Below are positions 6,241 to 29,198 of a stretch of 37,573 nucleotides of DNA, one piece after another. Both the position numbers and the translations under genes were made by a program. The notes below the pieces were generated by a model, which saw only the letters and a program-made list of their open reading frames with translations, was not told the DNA's origin and ran no database searches. This stretch comes from a virus: positions 1-37,573 of IMG/VR virus record IMGVR_UViG_3300031276_000009; one strand, 5' to 3'. The stretch's first letter is position 1. The number at the start of each line of letters is the position of its first letter.

Positions 6241-6681
6241 ATGGTAAAACAAAAATCAATCTGGGTAGTCTGGCTTATTATTTTTTCAGTGTTTTTGCTT
6301 TTTCCCCTTCAGCTTATAGTCAAGTTTGAAATCCCATTTGACGGAGCTATATGGGCTTTGTTTTTTATCGTTGGCGGTTATATGGGATTTGATCAATTCG
6401 CAACAATCATAACATCAAAGAAAATGCCCGAAGGATATAAATATACCGGAAGCTACAAAAAACTTTTATTTATTACAATCTCTCTTTGGATCCTTTTATT
6501 TGAAGCATTATTTTTTCAAAGTTTCCTAAAACAAATAAAACTCCCCTTAGATCAATTGTTCATGGCCGTCGGTTTGATATCAGGGATTTTTGCGGGAGGA
6601 AATAAATTAAATAATGCCGCCGAGCGAGAAGACGGTAATTTAAAACGACATAAAAACAAAGTTAATATGGTTGGATTATAA
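6241..6681 (+). CDS. Multi-pass membrane protein, holin candidate
   Basis: A 146-aa protein with four hydrophobic stretches: about 8-27 (WVVWLIIFSVFLLFPLQLIV), 37-55, 77-96 (LLFITISLWILLFEALFFQS) and 106-123 (LFMAVGLISGIFAGG), followed by a basic, hydrophilic tail (about 24 residues). The composition and place directly before the Rz/Rz1-like pair fit a holin. A strong AGGAG lies 5' of the start. Holins share no sequence signature, so the call depends on topology and context. Confidence 0.5.
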   Translation: MVKQKSIWVVWLIIFSVFLLFPLQLIVKFEIPFDGAIWALFFIVGGYMGFDQFATIITSKKMPEGYKYTGSYKKLLFITISLWILLFEALFFQSFLKQIKLPLDQLFMAVGLISGIFAGGNKLNNAAEREDGNLKRHKNKVNMVGL

Positions 6682-6682
6682 A

Positions 6683-6976
6683 ATGACCTTAATAATGATT
6701 TTAATTATTTTATTTATTGTTTCTCTATTGGTTAATTATTTTCTATTCAAATCCGTAAAAAAGAAAAATGGAATAATAGAAAGACAAAACGAAGCAATAG
6801 AAAAGGCATCACAAAACATGAAACATCTTGTTGATTATAATGACGTGATTCAAAATATATCAGAGAATCATCAGGAAGTTTACAATAAAATTAAAGAGGC
6901 AAAAACAGATGAAGAAGTTAATGATATTATTCATAATCTTATTACTATTAACAACAGTCACGTGCACGACGACTAA
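6683..6976 (+). CDS. i-spanin (Rz-like)
   Basis: A 97-aa inner-membrane protein with an N-terminal anchor (LIMILIILFIVSLLVNYFLF) and an exported coiled coil (KKNGIIERQNEAIEKASQNMKHLVDYNDVIQ), the layout of Rz-type i-spanins that bridge to the outer membrane in the last step of lysis. ATG at 6683, just after the upstream stop, is preferred over a TTG at 6671. The 3' end overlaps an out-of-frame lipoprotein gene by 68 nt, the classic Rz/Rz1 arrangement. Function comes from architecture, not sequence identity. Confidence 0.75.
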   Translation: MTLIMILIILFIVSLLVNYFLFKSVKKKNGIIERQNEAIEKASQNMKHLVDYNDVIQNISENHQEVYNKIKEAKTDEEVNDIIHNLITINNSHVHDD

Positions 6977-7157
6977 AGAAAAAGAGTTCATTACTTATAA
7001 ATATATCCTCCCACCATTTCCGAAAAGAAAAGAAATCATTTTACCGGCTAATTTAAAGTTAGCTGATTATGCGGAAATGATAAATTATTATGAACATCTT
7101 GTGCAAGAATGGGAAGAATGGGGAAAAAGTGTTGAAAAAATACTTGACACAAAATAA
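6909..7157 (+). CDS. o-spanin lipoprotein (Rz1-like)
   Basis: An 82-aa lipoprotein starting inside the i-spanin gene in another frame. MKKLMILFIILLLLTTVTC is a type II signal with Cys19 as the lipidation site; the residue before Cys is Thr rather than the usual Gly/Ala/Ser, a relaxed lipobox. The mature part is Pro-rich at first (ILPPFPKRKEIILP), as in Rz1, and then helical. AAAGAGG precedes the start. Together with the i-spanin it implies a host with an outer membrane. Its last codons carry the -35 of the next promoter. Confidence 0.75.
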   Translation: MKKLMILFIILLLLTTVTCTTTKEKEFITYKYILPPFPKRKEIILPANLKLADYAEMINYYEHLVQEWEEWGKSVEKILDTK

Positions 7158-7174
7158 ATATATGTTATTATAAA
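7144..7174 (+). promoter_or_regulatory. Candidate promoter for the beta-helix/capsid genes
   Basis: TTGACA at 7144-7149 (inside the last codons of the o-spanin) is followed after 18-19 nt by TTATAA/TATAAA (7168-7174). The next gene has a clear GGAGG at 7187-7191 and starts at 7196, so this promoter would give a normal short leader. It is the third TTGACA element in the intergenic regions of the plus-strand operon (others at 75 and 2940). Confidence 0.5.
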
Positions 7175-7195
7175 ATAATTTATACTGGAGGTAAT

Positions 7196-8356
7196 ATGAG
7201 TATTAGGACACAATTATATAATAATCGCAAAACATTACGTGAAATGGATATGAATTATCCTAATGTATGGCACGTAGTACCTGCTATCACAACAACCGGA
7301 ACCGGCAAATCCTGGGAATCACCTTTCAAAACGATAGCCGAAGCGATCGCCGTTGCAACCGCTGGCGATACTATAAAGATATGGGGTGAAGTCAACGAAT
7401 CCGGTCTTGTACTTGCAGTCGAACTACATGTCAAGGGACAAAATACTTCCCGTAATCAAAATAATACATTATTGTATCCGGTTGACGCCGAACCAATTTT
7501 TATCGTAAAGGCACATCAGTGTTCTATTGAAAATATTGGTTTTGCACAGACCGAAGCTGCCCTTGCGATTCAGATCGGAGATACAGCAGGTCAAGCCTGG
7601 CACAAACTCCATATCAAAAATTGTAAGCTCGACGGCTGGGGAACCTCGACCGGAGCTATAGCATTAGGTGATCCGGCAATCGACGCCCCTGATATTCATA
7701 TCGAAAAGTGTCTTTTTCGTTCATTCAACGGGGACGTTATAGTCTCGAATATGACAAGGGGATTATTTGAAGATAATATAATCCATGTAGCTGCTAATTT
7801 TTCCGGAATTTCTCATGTGCCAAACGGAGGCGATAAACCGGATACCATCATACAAAACAATTTGATTAAAGGCGTTAATTCCGGAGATACTGGAATTGAA
7901 ATCGTAAATACTCCTAATCCTGATGCGTTAGTCGTGACCGGAAATAAAGTTTACAATTGTGAAACTGATATTACTTACATCAATACGCTAACAGGTGTTA
8001 GGGATAATATCTATAACCGTGATCTTTTGATTGAAGACACTTATGCGTATTTAAATGCGGGCGGTGTTCAGGATATTGTAGAAATTACCAACAGTCAAAG
8101 GGCGCTTGTTAGAAGTATTGCCATAGATTGTACTGAACTCACGCAAAATGGAACAATTGGTTTTTGGATGAAAATCGATACAACTAATTACAGGGAGGTG
8201 AAAACAACGGCATTTACAGTTGCAAGTGAAGATAGTGTCGGATGGATTATTAACCTCGTAGTTAATGCTGATTTTAAAATCACTTTTACGGAAGGTAGTG
8301 ATGAGGGGGCGGACAGAAGTTTGCCTTATGTTTTAAGTTATCAATTGTTAGAATAA
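7196..8356 (+). CDS. Right-handed beta-helix protein, probable virion surface protein
   Basis: A 386-aa protein. Residues 30-75 carry the lead-in typical of parallel beta-helix proteins (GTGKSWESPFKTIAEAIAVATAGDTIKIWG). About 80-260 shows repeated helix rungs (IENIGF, LHIKNCKLDG, IHIEKCLFRS, TIIQNNLIKG, LVVTGNKVYNC). About 270-386 looks like a separate beta-rich C-terminal domain. It has no signal peptide. It lies between the spanins and the head protease with its own promoter-like element and a strong ribosome-binding site, so a head fibre/decoration or a tailspike-type protein are both possible. No catalytic residues are assigned. Confidence 0.7.
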   Translation: MSIRTQLYNNRKTLREMDMNYPNVWHVVPAITTTGTGKSWESPFKTIAEAIAVATAGDTIKIWGEVNESGLVLAVELHVKGQNTSRNQNNTLLYPVDAEPIFIVKAHQCSIENIGFAQTEAALAIQIGDTAGQAWHKLHIKNCKLDGWGTSTGAIALGDPAIDAPDIHIEKCLFRSFNGDVIVSNMTRGLFEDNIIHVAANFSGISHVPNGGDKPDTIIQNNLIKGVNSGDTGIEIVNTPNPDALVVTGNKVYNCETDITYINTLTGVRDNIYNRDLLIEDTYAYLNAGGVQDIVEITNSQRALVRSIAIDCTELTQNGTIGFWMKIDTTNYREVKTTAFTVASEDSVGWIINLVVNADFKITFTEGSDEGADRSLPYVLSYQLLE

Positions 8357-8372
8357 AAGGGAGAATATTTTT

Positions 8373-9413
8373 TTGAAAACAATTATAATCGACGGCGTAA
8401 TAGGATGGGATGTTTACGCAAGATCAATAAGACGACAATTAGATGAAGCAAACGGAGATCAAGTCGAAATACATCTTGCTTCACCCGGCGGATTTGTATA
8501 TGACGGATTAGAAATGCATAATATAATCCGAGATTATAATTCAAATACAAATAAGGTAACTATTATTATCAAGGCACTCGCTGCGTCTATGGCAAGTTAT
8601 ATTTCCTTAGCAGTTCCAAAAAATCAGCGTTATGCGGAAGATAATGCCGTTTTTATGATTCATAACGTATGGGGTTTTTCCGTTGGTGATTATCGGGAAA
8701 TGAACAAAATAGGTAAATATTTTGAGGCATTAACCAACCTATTGGCGAAAGGCTATTCAAAATCATCAGGGAAAAAACTTGATGAAATAAGACAGCTAAT
8801 GGATGATGAGACTTGGTACTTTGGTGATGAGATTTATCAAAATGGATTTGTTTCTAAAATAATTGAACACGAAAAAAAGGAAGGAAATAATTATACCAGA
8901 GATGAATATTTATCATTATCAAAAAGTAATTTTGATAATATGATTTCTAATTTACAAAAACATAAAGATGAAGCAATAGAGGATTTATCTCGTGCCTCAG
9001 CTTTAATGACAATAAAATCAGAAATTAAAATCCCCGCATCTGCGGGCAATAATAATAATACGGAGGTAATTATGAATCTTGAACAACTCAAGAAAGATCA
9101 CCCCGAACTGTATGCCCAGGTAATTCAGATCGGGAAAGATGAAGAGTTTGACCGGGTAAGTGCCCATATAACAATGGGAGAGTCTGCAAACTCTCTTGAT
9201 ATTGCCGTTAAACACATCAAGGCAAAAACCGGATTTAATCAGGCAGTATCAGCTGAATATATGTCAGCCGGAATGAAAAATCAATCCTTGCAGAATCGTA
9301 AATCCGATGATGTAACCACGGGAGGGCAAGCTGACACCAACGATGACGAAGCCGATACGCAAGCTCTAACTCAAAATCTGCTCAAAAAACGGGGGGTAAA
9401 AAATGGGAAATAA
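8373..9413 (+). CDS. Prohead maturation protease (ClpP fold) with C-terminal scaffold
   Basis: A 346-aa lambda gpC-like protein. Residues 1-165 are a ClpP/S49-type serine protease: HLASPGGFVYDGLEMHN oxyanion region, catalytic Ser72 in ALAASMASY and His97 in MIHNVWG. A linker (about 170-230) leads to a C-terminal scaffold-like part (234-346) that is helical, then Asp/Gln-rich (TTGGQADTNDDEADTQ). The protease would trim scaffold and itself during head maturation. The start is TTG at 8373 with AAGGGAG 9 nt upstream. An internal ATG with GGAGGT lies at 9072. Its end overlaps the decoration gene by 11 nt. Confidence 0.9.
   Translation: MKTIIIDGVIGWDVYARSIRRQLDEANGDQVEIHLASPGGFVYDGLEMHNIIRDYNSNTNKVTIIIKALAASMASYISLAVPKNQRYAEDNAVFMIHNVWGFSVGDYREMNKIGKYFEALTNLLAKGYSKSSGKKLDEIRQLMDDETWYFGDEIYQNGFVSKIIEHEKKEGNNYTRDEYLSLSKSNFDNMISNLQKHKDEAIEDLSRASALMTIKSEIKIPASAGNNNNTEVIMNLEQLKKDHPELYAQVIQIGKDEEFDRVSAHITMGESANSLDIAVKHIKAKTGFNQAVSAEYMSAGMKNQSLQNRKSDDVTTGGQADTNDDEADTQALTQNLLKKRGVKNGK
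9072..9413 (+). CDS. Nested in-frame scaffold protein (Nu3-like)
   Basis: Inside the protease gene, in the same frame, GGAGGT at 9062-9067 lies 4 nt before an ATG at 9072, encoding 113 aa (MNLEQLKKDHPELYAQVIQIG...). The product is helical and acidic, as expected of a capsid scaffold. Lambda makes Nu3 the same way from the 3' end of gene C. The ribosome-binding site in the middle of a coding sequence, just after an Asn-rich linker, is strong evidence that the nested product is real. Confidence 0.8.
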   Translation: MNLEQLKKDHPELYAQVIQIGKDEEFDRVSAHITMGESANSLDIAVKHIKAKTGFNQAVSAEYMSAGMKNQSLQNRKSDDVTTGGQADTNDDEADTQALTQNLLKKRGVKNGK

Positions 9414-14636: not shown

Positions 14637-14821
14637 ACGGACAAAGAAAAATAGTTTACGGAATATCTGGAATAGTAATACAAATATTACAGATATGTAC
14701 TGATTATAATGGACTACCGGATATTAAGGCTATGGAAATATGGGAAATTCAATTTTTTTACAAACCGTTAATTCCTCAGTTAATAGAATATCAAAAAAAT
14801 GCTATAAATGCGAAAAAATAA
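14615..14821 (+). CDS. Tail assembly chaperone, -1 frame extension (gpT/gp42-like)
   Basis: An open frame that begins at the zero-frame stop (TTGA overlap) and is reached by -1 frameshifting at 14609. It encodes ...EIASNGQRKIVYGISGIVIQILQICTDYNGLPDIKAMEIWEIQFFYKPLIPQLIEYQKNAINAKK. The segment KAMEIWEIQFFYKPLIPQLIEYQK looks like the C-terminal part of Mu-type chaperone fusions. As a free ORF it has only a TTG start and no convincing ribosome-binding site, so expression as a fusion is much more likely. The last 82 nt overlap the HNH gene. Confidence 0.8.
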   Translation: MKQEIASNGQRKIVYGISGIVIQILQICTDYNGLPDIKAMEIWEIQFFYKPLIPQLIEYQKNAINAKK

Positions 14822-15471
14822 AACAGTTAATTTATTTTAATAAAAAAAAATGCAATAAAGATGGATTTGATAATATATGCAAAGAATGTAAAAAAAAAGA
14901 AAATGAAATATATAGAAAAGAAAATCAAAAATATTTTAATAATTATTTAAAAAATTATAGATTTAATAATCCTAATTATATGAAAAATTGGTATGATAAA
15001 AATAAAAATGAATTTAATGAAAAGGTTAATAAAAAGAAAAGAAACAATAGAGATATAATAAGAGATAAGGAACGTATATATAGAAAAAACAATAGAGAAC
15101 AATTTAATAAAAGATGTAGAGAATATAATAAAAAAAGAAAAAAAATTGACCCTGATTTCAAATTAAGAGTTTTATTACGACATCGTTTATATCTTGCAAT
15201 AAAAAAAGATTGCAAGAAGACATCTGCAATTAATTTACTTGGATGTTCAATTCTGTTTTTAAAAAAATATTTAGAATTGTTATTCCAATATGGAATGACA
15301 TGGAAAAATCACGGAGAATGGCATATAGATCACATCAAACCATGTGCATCTTTTGATTTAACCAAAGAGTCAGAGCAAAAAAAATGTTTTCATTATACAA
15401 ATCTTCAACCACTTTGGGCGAAAGATAATCTTACAAAAGGAGCTTCTTCTTGGCCAGTCGATACTCGATAG
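14740..15471 (+). CDS. HNH homing endonuclease with N-terminal zinc ribbon
   Basis: Residues 21-50 hold a CxxC...CxxC zinc ribbon (C21, C24, C47, C50). Residues 55-140 are Lys/Asn-rich helices, probably for DNA binding. Residues 163-235 are an HNH domain: INLLGCS, GMTWKNHGEWHIDHIKPC (H195, D197, H198), HYTNLQPLWAKDN (N221, N230). This matches free-standing phage homing nucleases that cut intronless alleles and spread by repair. The gene is far richer in A than its neighbours, a sign of separate origin. The true start may lie after 14740 and before C21 (near 14800). Its 3' end contains the ribosome-binding site and start of the tape measure gene. Confidence 0.88.
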   Translation: MGNSIFLQTVNSSVNRISKKCYKCEKIKQLIYFNKKKCNKDGFDNICKECKKKENEIYRKENQKYFNNYLKNYRFNNPNYMKNWYDKNKNEFNEKVNKKKRNNRDIIRDKERIYRKNNREQFNKRCREYNKKRKKIDPDFKLRVLLRHRLYLAIKKDCKKTSAINLLGCSILFLKKYLELLFQYGMTWKNHGEWHIDHIKPCASFDLTKESEQKKCFHYTNLQPLWAKDNLTKGASSWPVDTR

Positions 15472-26021: not shown

Positions 26022-26990
26022 TTAAAATAAATCCAAAGATTCATCTAAAGATTGATTTTCCTCATCTTCCGTTTCAGGCTTGGACTGTTTTGTATTTGAT
26101 TCTTTTTTGACTTCCTGTTTGGGATCCTCGGTGAAATTAGGTTCTTGTTTTTCGAGTGATTCGTTTATGTCGTCGATAACCGAACCGGTCTTTTTTTCTT
26201 CCGTTTCATCATCATATATTGCGGAGGCGAGTAACTCTCTGGCCTCTTCATATCGTTCGCAAAAGTGACGTATTGACGATTGGAGCGCCATTTCGTCCGG
26301 CCATTCGATCCAGGGGGAATCTTGTTTGTTTTTTGTTGCTGACTGATAAGCCTTCGAGCAATTGCGCCACTGATCAATTTTTGATCTTCTGTAAAGTACC
26401 GCTTCTTTTTGACCGTTCATCTTTAATGCTTGGACCCATACTCCAACAAGCTTCCCTCCATCTTCTGAAACACCCGGGACATGGCTTACTTCTCCCTTAC
26501 CAATATCAACTTGACATTCGTCTTTTTCGTAGACCTGGCCCCATCGTAAATCCTGGAAAATCGGTCTTTTACCACCGACCAATAGGGCATAATAGCCACG
26601 GTCACGGATTGAAAATCTTACTTCTTTCACCCATAGATCTTTCCCATCAGGACCCTTACGATTTGTATTTCTTCCCTGGGGCACGAGATAGGCATGTTTT
26701 CCACCTATTTGCAGGCCGGTGGAAACTGATTTTTCAACCGCTTCTATAAGGGAGAGTTTTCCTTCCGGACTCATGAAACATTCGATCAGCTTATCATCCT
26801 TTGCAATTGTCATAATTGTACGCTCGAAGAATTGGTTTTGTTTTTCTTCCGGCCATGATTGGAACTCTTCGCCGGCCGATATTAAGATTTTTGATTTCAA
26901 AGCGGTTATGCCTTTTCTGATTGATTCTTCTTTCTGAATCATGTTTATTACCGGGATATATTCAGCCGGTAAGTTTTTATTTTCTTGCAT
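26022..26990 (-). CDS. recT: RecT family single-strand annealing protein
   Basis: A 322-aa protein that anneals single strands in phage recombination. The core (SVSTGLQIGGKHAYLVPQGRNTNRKGPDGKDLWVKEVRFSIRDRGYYALL, VYEKDE, GVWVQALKMNGQKEAVLYRRSKIDQWRNCSKAY, IEWPDEMALQSSIRHFCER) is typical of RecT. The tail from about 262 is acidic and disordered, ending DESLDLF, which resembles the acidic tip by which SSB recruits partners. It works with the YqaJ exonuclease encoded upstream in the operon. GGAGAAAACT precedes the ATG. Confidence 0.93.
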   Translation of the reverse strand: MQENKNLPAEYIPVINMIQKEESIRKGITALKSKILISAGEEFQSWPEEKQNQFFERTIMTIAKDDKLIECFMSPEGKLSLIEAVEKSVSTGLQIGGKHAYLVPQGRNTNRKGPDGKDLWVKEVRFSIRDRGYYALLVGGKRPIFQDLRWGQVYEKDECQVDIGKGEVSHVPGVSEDGGKLVGVWVQALKMNGQKEAVLYRRSKIDQWRNCSKAYQSATKNKQDSPWIEWPDEMALQSSIRHFCERYEEARELLASAIYDDETEEKKTGSVIDDINESLEKQEPNFTEDPKQEVKKESNTKQSKPETEDEENQSLDESLDLF

Positions 26991-27007: not shown

Positions 27008-27682
27008 TTAATCTTCATAATAACCATATTCTAATTCCACATTATCAGAATCATCTATAATTTTAATTTTTCTTGCATAGAGTTGGAAAAGGAAAGAATC
27101 GAAGCCATAAAACTTATCTGTTTTTATTTTGTTAACGTCTTTTCCTTCTATTTCCATATACCATAGCCCAGTTTTGTTTATTCTCAATTCGTATGAGCAT
27201 GAATAATAATCCCGATCGGACTCTTCGTCAAATCTGTAATCAATGTATCCATCCGATGTGGTACTTTCTTTTTTGTGGAAACTTATCTCTCCGCTTTCGC
27301 CAGGATCACATCCAATTCCTTTTTTAAACTCTTCGATAATTTCGGATATTTTGTACTCGGTTTTTGTAATGGGAATAAAAAACTTTTCAAGGTCTTTTTT
27401 GATTTGCTCTTTTGCATCAGAAATAATATTTTTATCTATTATTTCTTTTACATAATTACAAATCAATTGATTATAGATTGTAAAATCCAAGTCAAGATCT
27501 GCAAGTGCCAGGGATGCCTTTACTTTTTCTTTTAGGTTTTTGCCAAAATCAGAATAATTACATAGACAATCCATGATTACAGATTGCAAACATTTTTCAA
27601 GAGTCTCTTTTATTTTTTCTTGAATGAATCCCGAGTCGGTAATTTTTTTTAATTACTCTGCAATTGTTTTTTCTAAATCCAT
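27008..27682 (-). pseudogene. 225-codon gene interrupted by an in-frame TAA at codon 10
   Basis: From ATG 27682 (AAGGAG at 27690-27695, 7 nt upstream) the frame reads MDLEKTIAE, then TAA (27653-27655), then continues open to 27008 with LKKITDSGFIQEKIKETLEK ... YSDFGKNLKEKVKASLALAD. The operon spacing and ribosome-binding site mark 27682 as the ancestral start. One base change would repair it. Translation might restart at TTG 27589 or ATG 27574, giving about 193 or 188 aa, but neither has a good ribosome-binding site. The C-terminal half has acidic beta-rich segments (YIDYRFDEESDRDYYSCSYELRINKTGLWYMEI). Function unknown; the family looks like small early phage proteins. Confidence 0.75.
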
Positions 27683-27693
27683 AGTTTTGCTCC

Positions 27694-28143
27694 TTATTGT
27701 ATTATTTTAGCAATCTTGACTTTGTCAAGATGTTTAAACTTTAATTTTTTCGTTTCCGGGATGATTATGTCATTTTCAAAATAGGTTTTTATTTTTTCGA
27801 TGATGTTTGCGTAATCAGACATAAACTCCGGCAGTTTATTATATTCGATTTCCAGTTGCACTAATATTTTTAAATTAGGTGGATAAAGTTTTTCGGATTC
27901 TTTTTCTTCTTTGATTTCAAAGCCTTCGTTTTTTGTCGGGAGGTGGTCGGGTTTTTTATAAGGATCTTTAAGATCGAATACGTAAAGGCAGTTTGGGCAC
28001 GTGGTTATTTTAGGTTTTTTCTTGGCTTCGTGTTCTTCTAATAGTTTTTTGAAATCATCAAAATGATAGCAATCTGGTTTAATATTGCAAGGATGGGCAG
28101 GGCAAGCCTTACAAAATAATTTTAAGATAGTTTTAATTTTCAT
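27694..28143 (-). CDS. Cys-rich early protein, probable zinc binder
   Basis: A 149-aa protein with two Cys clusters: C11, C14, C19, C25 (CKACPAHPCNIKPDC) and CPNC at 49-52. The second half is helical and charged (LVQLEIEYNKLPEFMSDYANIIEKIKTYFE). It lies between the YqaJ exonuclease and recT side of the operon; the start overlaps the YqaJ stop by 4 nt, so it is probably co-translated. No family recognised. Confidence 0.65.
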   Translation of the reverse strand: MKIKTILKLFCKACPAHPCNIKPDCYHFDDFKKLLEEHEAKKKPKITTCPNCLYVFDLKDPYKKPDHLPTKNEGFEIKEEKESEKLYPPNLKILVQLEIEYNKLPEFMSDYANIIEKIKTYFENDIIIPETKKLKFKHLDKVKIAKIIQ

Positions 28144-29198
28144 AGTATATACCTCTTGTCATGTTTATTTATCAATCCTTTTTTTAGAAGGATTTTATAT
28201 GCTTCCGGGGCTTGTTTTTCTATCGTTGACGGATGGATTAGGTTGAATTGATCTTTTGAAATTACTTGTTGAAATAATTTTTTTCCGGTCTCTCCGTTAT
28301 ATAGGAATTTGCTTTCTTCCATGAGCAAGCCAGCGGCATCTTTTATGTCATCAATTCTTTTTGAGTAGAGTTTGATTTTTGATTCTAGTTTCTTTTTTTC
28401 TGCTTTCATGTTTTCGGATATTACCGCCCTTTCACCCGTGACATAGATAGCTTTGTCTTTTACTTCCGGAAATAATTTTTTTATATCGTCAAACTTTTCA
28501 GGTTGCGGGGGCTTGTCCTGTTGGCAATACTGAAGGAATCGACTTGCTTTTTCCAGCATAAGCGGCCACCATTTCCGGAAGGATGGGATTTCGTAGATAT
28601 GAAATTTGTTATCGTCTATCAACAGTAAGACATATGTTAGGTCTATATCATAACACAACATCTGCCACTGAGTTTGGAGTAATATATCAGACGGTACGCC
28701 TAACTCTGTATGATCTTCGAGGTCAAAACCTTCAAATCCTTCACGTTTTACGCGTGCGAAATATCCGCCTGTTTTTGCTTCGATGTTATATGGTGATTCA
28801 TAATCGTTCTTAACACAATCGGCATGTGCAATTGCCCAGGGAAATCGAGGGTGTGAGCATTCGGTGAATGGATGAAAGATTGTAGGGGGATGATAGTTTA
28901 CGGGATCCCGCCACTCTTCGTGGAGTATATAGTCAACTTTGAATTGGTGAGCGACTTTAGCACAACTTTTTTTTCTTATGAATGCCGAGATTAGAAGAGG
29001 TTCGAGTTCATGGCCCCAGGTGGTGAAATCATTACCCTGGAAGGATTCTACTTTTCCGGTTTTTTCTTCCCATAGTTCGTAGAGTGATTTTTTTATATGG
29101 GTGTTTTTTGTCTTGATAATTACTGGAATATCAGATGAGCCGATTATCAATTCACCTTCATTCCGGACATTTGATTTATAGAAAGTATATGGATTCAT
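28140..29198 (-). CDS. YqaJ-type phage recombination exonuclease
   Basis: A 352-aa protein of the PD-(D/E)XK superfamily, lambda-exonuclease/YqaJ type, which degrades one strand from DNA ends to give substrate for RecT. Motifs: IIGSSDIPVII near 18-28, WGHELEPLLI (61-70, E64), IAHADCV with D127, NIEAKTG with E140 and K142, and QTQWQMLCYDID (175-186). After about 265 comes a helical C-terminal part (ENMKAEKKKLESKIKLYSKRIDDIKDAAGLLM), a common addition. Start overlaps the upstream stop as ATGA. Confidence 0.92.
   Translation of the reverse strand: MNPYTFYKSNVRNEGELIIGSSDIPVIIKTKNTHIKKSLYELWEEKTGKVESFQGNDFTTWGHELEPLLISAFIRKKSCAKVAHQFKVDYILHEEWRDPVNYHPPTIFHPFTECSHPRFPWAIAHADCVKNDYESPYNIEAKTGGYFARVKREGFEGFDLEDHTELGVPSDILLQTQWQMLCYDIDLTYVLLLIDDNKFHIYEIPSFRKWWPLMLEKASRFLQYCQQDKPPQPEKFDDIKKLFPEVKDKAIYVTGERAVISENMKAEKKKLESKIKLYSKRIDDIKDAAGLLMEESKFLYNGETGKKLFQQVISKDQFNLIHPSTIEKQAPEAYKILLKKGLINKHDKRYIL

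Follow-up and report, generated by a model that had tools for sequence, protein, structure and literature searches.

Single nonsense lesions are common in dispensable phage genes, and naturally occurring nonsense alleles of phage and prophage genes are among the closest counterparts of the locus described here, in which a gene is interrupted by TAA at its tenth codon. As in those alleles, one substitution separates the gene from an otherwise intact frame and the gene is absent from some relatives; no difference between them and the present case was observed. A second point of comparison is the reassignment of TAG to glutamine (genetic code 15) reported for crAss-like phages (PMC9523058). As that system is outlined there, our locus resembles it in having a stop where relatives encode glutamine, but differs in that the codon is TAA and occurs only once, that TAA is the main terminator of the virus, and that no suppressor tRNA was found in the viral sequence scanned. 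The third is the protein family itself, phrog_2600, a PHROG family annotated as of unknown function, with members in phages of Listeria, Bacillus and Vibrio and in Paenibacillaceae genomes. Search listings and the opening parts of abstracts contained no paper with the term phrog_2600. The copy analysed here shares with other members a near-full-length profile match, the SDFGK motif and the N-terminal start, and with two of them (L003 and L137, below) a RecT neighbourhood. It differs in its stop at codon 10 (i.e. it has no uninterrupted frame); among the distinct near-full-length members compared, one other has an in-frame stop, at codon 14.

The window, by which we mean the whole stretch of DNA analysed, is a virus record of 37,573 bases. 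The operon around the gene comprises a helicase, a YqaJ/RecE-like exonuclease, a small unknown gene, the phrog_2600 gene and RecT. The features relevant here are as follows.

28140..29198, minus strand: YqaJ/RecE-like exonuclease of the same operon, identified by profile matches
27694..28143, minus strand: upstream operon gene, function unknown, intact in the window; its homologue in L003/L012 has an in-frame TAA
27690..27695, minus strand: Shine-Dalgarno sequence AAGGAG, overlapping the upstream gene's stop (TAA 27694-27696)
27656..27682, minus strand: nine-codon open start MDLEKTIAE, homologous to the phrog_2600 family N-terminus
27653..27655, minus strand: in-frame TAA, codon 10; CAA (Gln) in L003 and L137
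27008..27652, minus strand: rest of the frame, 214 codons and stop; phrog_2600 family, E 8.9e-38
26022..26990, minus strand: gene downstream, encoding a single-strand annealing protein of the RecT family and preceded by a Shine-Dalgarno sequence of its own; PF03837, E 1.1e-15

The minus-strand frame 27682..27008 is translated as MDLEKTIAE*LKKITDSGFIQEKIKETLEK... An earlier note on this DNA had placed the start at ATG 27682, with a ribosome-binding site overlapping the upstream stop, and this arrangement was confirmed, the site being a strong one; L003 and L137 show the same overlap. The interrupting TAA is read directly in both the sequence and the translation. The frame that follows, which the note had given as 215 codons, is indeed long and open, but has 214 sense codons, the figure of 215 including the terminal TAA at 27008-27010. 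An open run of this length is not a chance event, since none of the 181,891 runs in dinucleotide-model sequence reached 214 codons, the longest being 188. Although 100 of the 225 codons of the frame are one substitution away from a stop, codon 10 and the terminal codon are the only stops seen in it.

The translation after the stop, previously described only as protein-like, matched the phrog_2600 profile over positions 15-234 of 236 (E 8.9e-38). The pre-stop residues MDLEKTIAE align with family N-termini, including MEIEKTVKE (L003), MDFNKMVND (a Listeria phage), MDLNLIVNN (SPbetaL8) and MNFEKTVNE (a Vibrio phage). The nine codons before the stop therefore represent the family N-terminus, so the start at 27682 is right and the TAA is internal to the gene. 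Judged by these alignments, the interrupted frame is a real gene, a broken copy of a phrog_2600 member. No function was assigned to the protein: Pfam, NCBIfam and PADLOC gave only sub-threshold or chance-level matches, and the sequence search a weak match to an XisI-like chain (E 0.073). The AlphaFold2 model of the L003 homologue had a mean pLDDT of 72.6, the C-terminal alpha/beta part being modelled confidently and the helical N-terminal part poorly; its best Foldseek match in the PDB had E 0.75, and the structural matches at E < 0.001 were two viral proteins without known function.

Two relatives carry the gene intact between the same neighbours and, by direct reading, have CAA (Gln) at codon 10: L003 (IMGVR_UViG_3300032061_000025), whose RecT is 85% identical to that of the window, and L137 (IMGVR_UViG_3300031673_000301), whose exonuclease is 72% identical. 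A sense codon in relatives is as expected for an error or mutation, and the difference between TAA and CAA, with no other internal stop in the frame, agrees with the proposal that one base change separates the window copy from an intact gene. Elsewhere in the family the codon-10 residue is S, T, A or K, and across the aligned members the position is variable, not conserved. The partial L011 copy has no stop at this site; that copy (L011 1-320) ends at a stop after residue 109 in L003 numbering, at about the boundary between the helical part and the C-terminal domain. The related records G001 and G1190 gave no match to the phrog_2600 gene, which argues that it is dispensable in this phage group. 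An exact-pattern search of viral_contigs, with the first base of the stop left free, returned no further contig of this virus; the window's own record may be missing from that set.

Downstream of the stop, the frame (27011-27652) has evolved as a coding sequence. Against L003 and L137 its dN was 0.36-0.37 and its dS 1.3-1.7, giving a dN/dS of ∼0.22-0.28, and it contains no second lesion. The low ratio and the lack of any other lesion indicate long-lasting constraint, and a stop in a frame with such a history would be either recent or in a frame that is still used. The dS between the window and L003 was 1.66 in the phrog_2600 gene, compared with 0.62 for RecT and 0.71 for the next gene, which suggests that the window allele was acquired from a different lineage by recombination. 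A relaxation of constraint along the window lineage was considered and rejected: with L137 as outgroup there were 43 unique residues against 21, but RecT gave 16 against 8, so the gene is nothing special in this respect.

We conclude that the TAA, in a dispensable phage gene, is very probably either a nonsense lesion that arose recently by one substitution or a sequencing or assembly error; the CAA of L003 and L137 fits the earlier suggestion of a fresh loss or assembly error. A single substitution would have placed a stop where the first helix has a variable residue. Translation would start at 27682 and end after nine codons, and the protein would be absent or made only in traces, while the downstream RecT would be served by its own ribosome-binding site. 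The loss of the product, the recency of the stop and the dispensability of the gene are what we infer from these comparisons. One observation sits uneasily with simple loss, namely that there is no further decay after the stop; a function retained through readthrough or restart would give the same picture. For annotation, the gene should be called from 27682 and marked as interrupted, not called from TTG 27589, and phrog_2600 can be described, for this phage group, as a neighbour of RecT that is conserved yet dispensable. The finding is of little biological weight.

Within this explanation, a nonsense mutation in the virus population is the more likely origin and a sequencing or assembly error the less likely. 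In the latter case the virus would have the sense codon and the contig would be wrong at one base. An error would suit the single, unreplicated contig, the sense codon of the relatives and a frame that is perfect in every other respect. However, substitutions outside homopolymers, such as this one, are uncommon as consensus errors, and since no other internal stop was seen in the 49 ORFs compared, errors are not a general problem. As one branch of the preferred explanation, an error is thus unlikely, although it retains an appreciable share.

Other members of the family are also broken. Across the loci compared there were 86 distinct phrog_2600 nucleotide matches, 78 of them near full length, and an in-frame stop was present in two of the 78: the window (codon 10) and a Paenibacillus prophage (codon 14). 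The latter (L033 4001-4678, identical to L106 and L139) carries an independent TAA: its GCA TAA corresponds to GCA TTA in three siblings. Its presumed host is taken from an identical copy among the Paenibacillaceae genomes (3681/3681 bases), and because of this identity the prophage copy was counted once. In SPbetaL8 the copy (L006) is split by a frameshift, and those of L053 and L122/L123 look frameshifted; the SPbetaL8 copy (L006 2471-3206) is annotated as two overlapping ORFs, with the same peptide repeated at the junction. We used RecT as a yardstick in 394 Paenibacillaceae genomes, where two of 90 rows carried a TAA flag (raw flags). In the same genomes phrog_2600 gave 26 rows, two of them TAA-flagged and one of these real; a single-TAA flag in L117 reflected a TAA just before its ATG and was left out of the count. 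The RecT figure indicates that such lesions are not special to phrog_2600, and the broken copies of the family appear unremarkable. An excess of early stops in the family was also rejected, there being only two cases in 78 distinct sequences, one of which is the window itself.

Restart of translation would be the next possibility. Reinitiation after the nine codons, at TTG 27589 or ATG 27574, would yield an N-terminally shortened working protein, and the conserved SDFGK motif, which begins at residue 44, would be retained as it lies downstream of both codons; the lesions in the window and the Paenibacillus prophage are also both early. Neither restart codon, however, has a Shine-Dalgarno sequence within 20 bases. 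All 121 near-full-length family matches (a number that includes duplicates and the window, its stop being read as X) begin at profile position 1-3, and no shortened natural form was found among them. On the model of the L003 homologue, whose N-terminal part is of low confidence, the window stop would lie within helix 1, and a restarted protein would be without that helix and the greater part of helix 2. The suggestion of a restart at these codons thus finds little in its favour, and we regard it as quite improbable.

A related idea is that a very early TAA, as at codons 10 and 14, repeatedly silences or lowers phrog_2600 expression, as a tolerated or selected form of dosage control with a trace product from readthrough or restart, rather than reflecting simple decay. 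Both stops in the family do lie within the first 14 codons, which is somewhat early for random lesions, but the window was chosen for its stop. We consider dosage control of this kind highly improbable. Expression through the early stop, if true, would be a rare case of TAA readthrough in a single gene.

In favour of programmed or suppressor-dependent readthrough, the frame remains cleanly open beyond the TAA, and in a close relative the adjacent gene is interrupted by an in-frame TAA. Such readthrough is nevertheless exceedingly improbable, and the possibility raised earlier, of a stop read through on purpose, was not supported by any of the signals sought. The scanned sequence of the window, L012, L015, L016, L017 and L137 contained no suppressor tRNA, and that of L138 only one tRNA-Met. 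An Rfam search of the window gave no match, and RNA structure in the 100 bases after the stop did not differ significantly from shuffled sequences (z −1.03). The stop codon and its context are not kept in the intact relatives L003 and L137. General recoding of TAA, already thought unlikely in the earlier note, can be discarded: TAA terminates 33 of the 49 window ORFs (picked by eye from the ORF list and including overlapping and a few doubtful small ones), and there is one internal TAA among the window genes. When the 49 ORFs were compared by tblastn with relatives (L012, G001, G003, G1189 and G1190; alignment list read by eye), one stop was found inside a relative in 119 alignments. In the reverse comparison (118 sense-frame alignments), no stop but 27653-27655 fell within a gene of the window; the others were located past the ends of genes or in extensions of the frame.

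A pair of compensating indels, or slippage, in place of a substitution would be next to impossible: A6 and A8 runs do flank the stop, but the window aligns ungapped and in frame with L003/L137 (EKTIAE*LKKI vs EKTVKEQFKEI), which argues against it.

The in-frame TAA in the neighbouring gene lies at L003 128-130 (L012 9483-9485, minus strand), 17 codons before the gene end and near the end of that contig. At the corresponding site the window has AAA (27748-27750) and L137 has GAG. The occurrence of stops in neighbouring genes of two related viruses seems curious from the alignments, but the stops affect different genes, at different positions, and replace different codons, and neither virus (the window or L003/L012) has the stop of the other.

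Elsewhere in the window, an ORF between tail genes (14740-15471) presumably resembles an HNH-type endonuclease, as judged by its motif. In L004, the tail-region ORFs at 6384-8899 contain many near-identical repeats (TYLAVAHYTSPYITIYKRSGDTFTKLADPASLP and variants) that extend over two ORFs.
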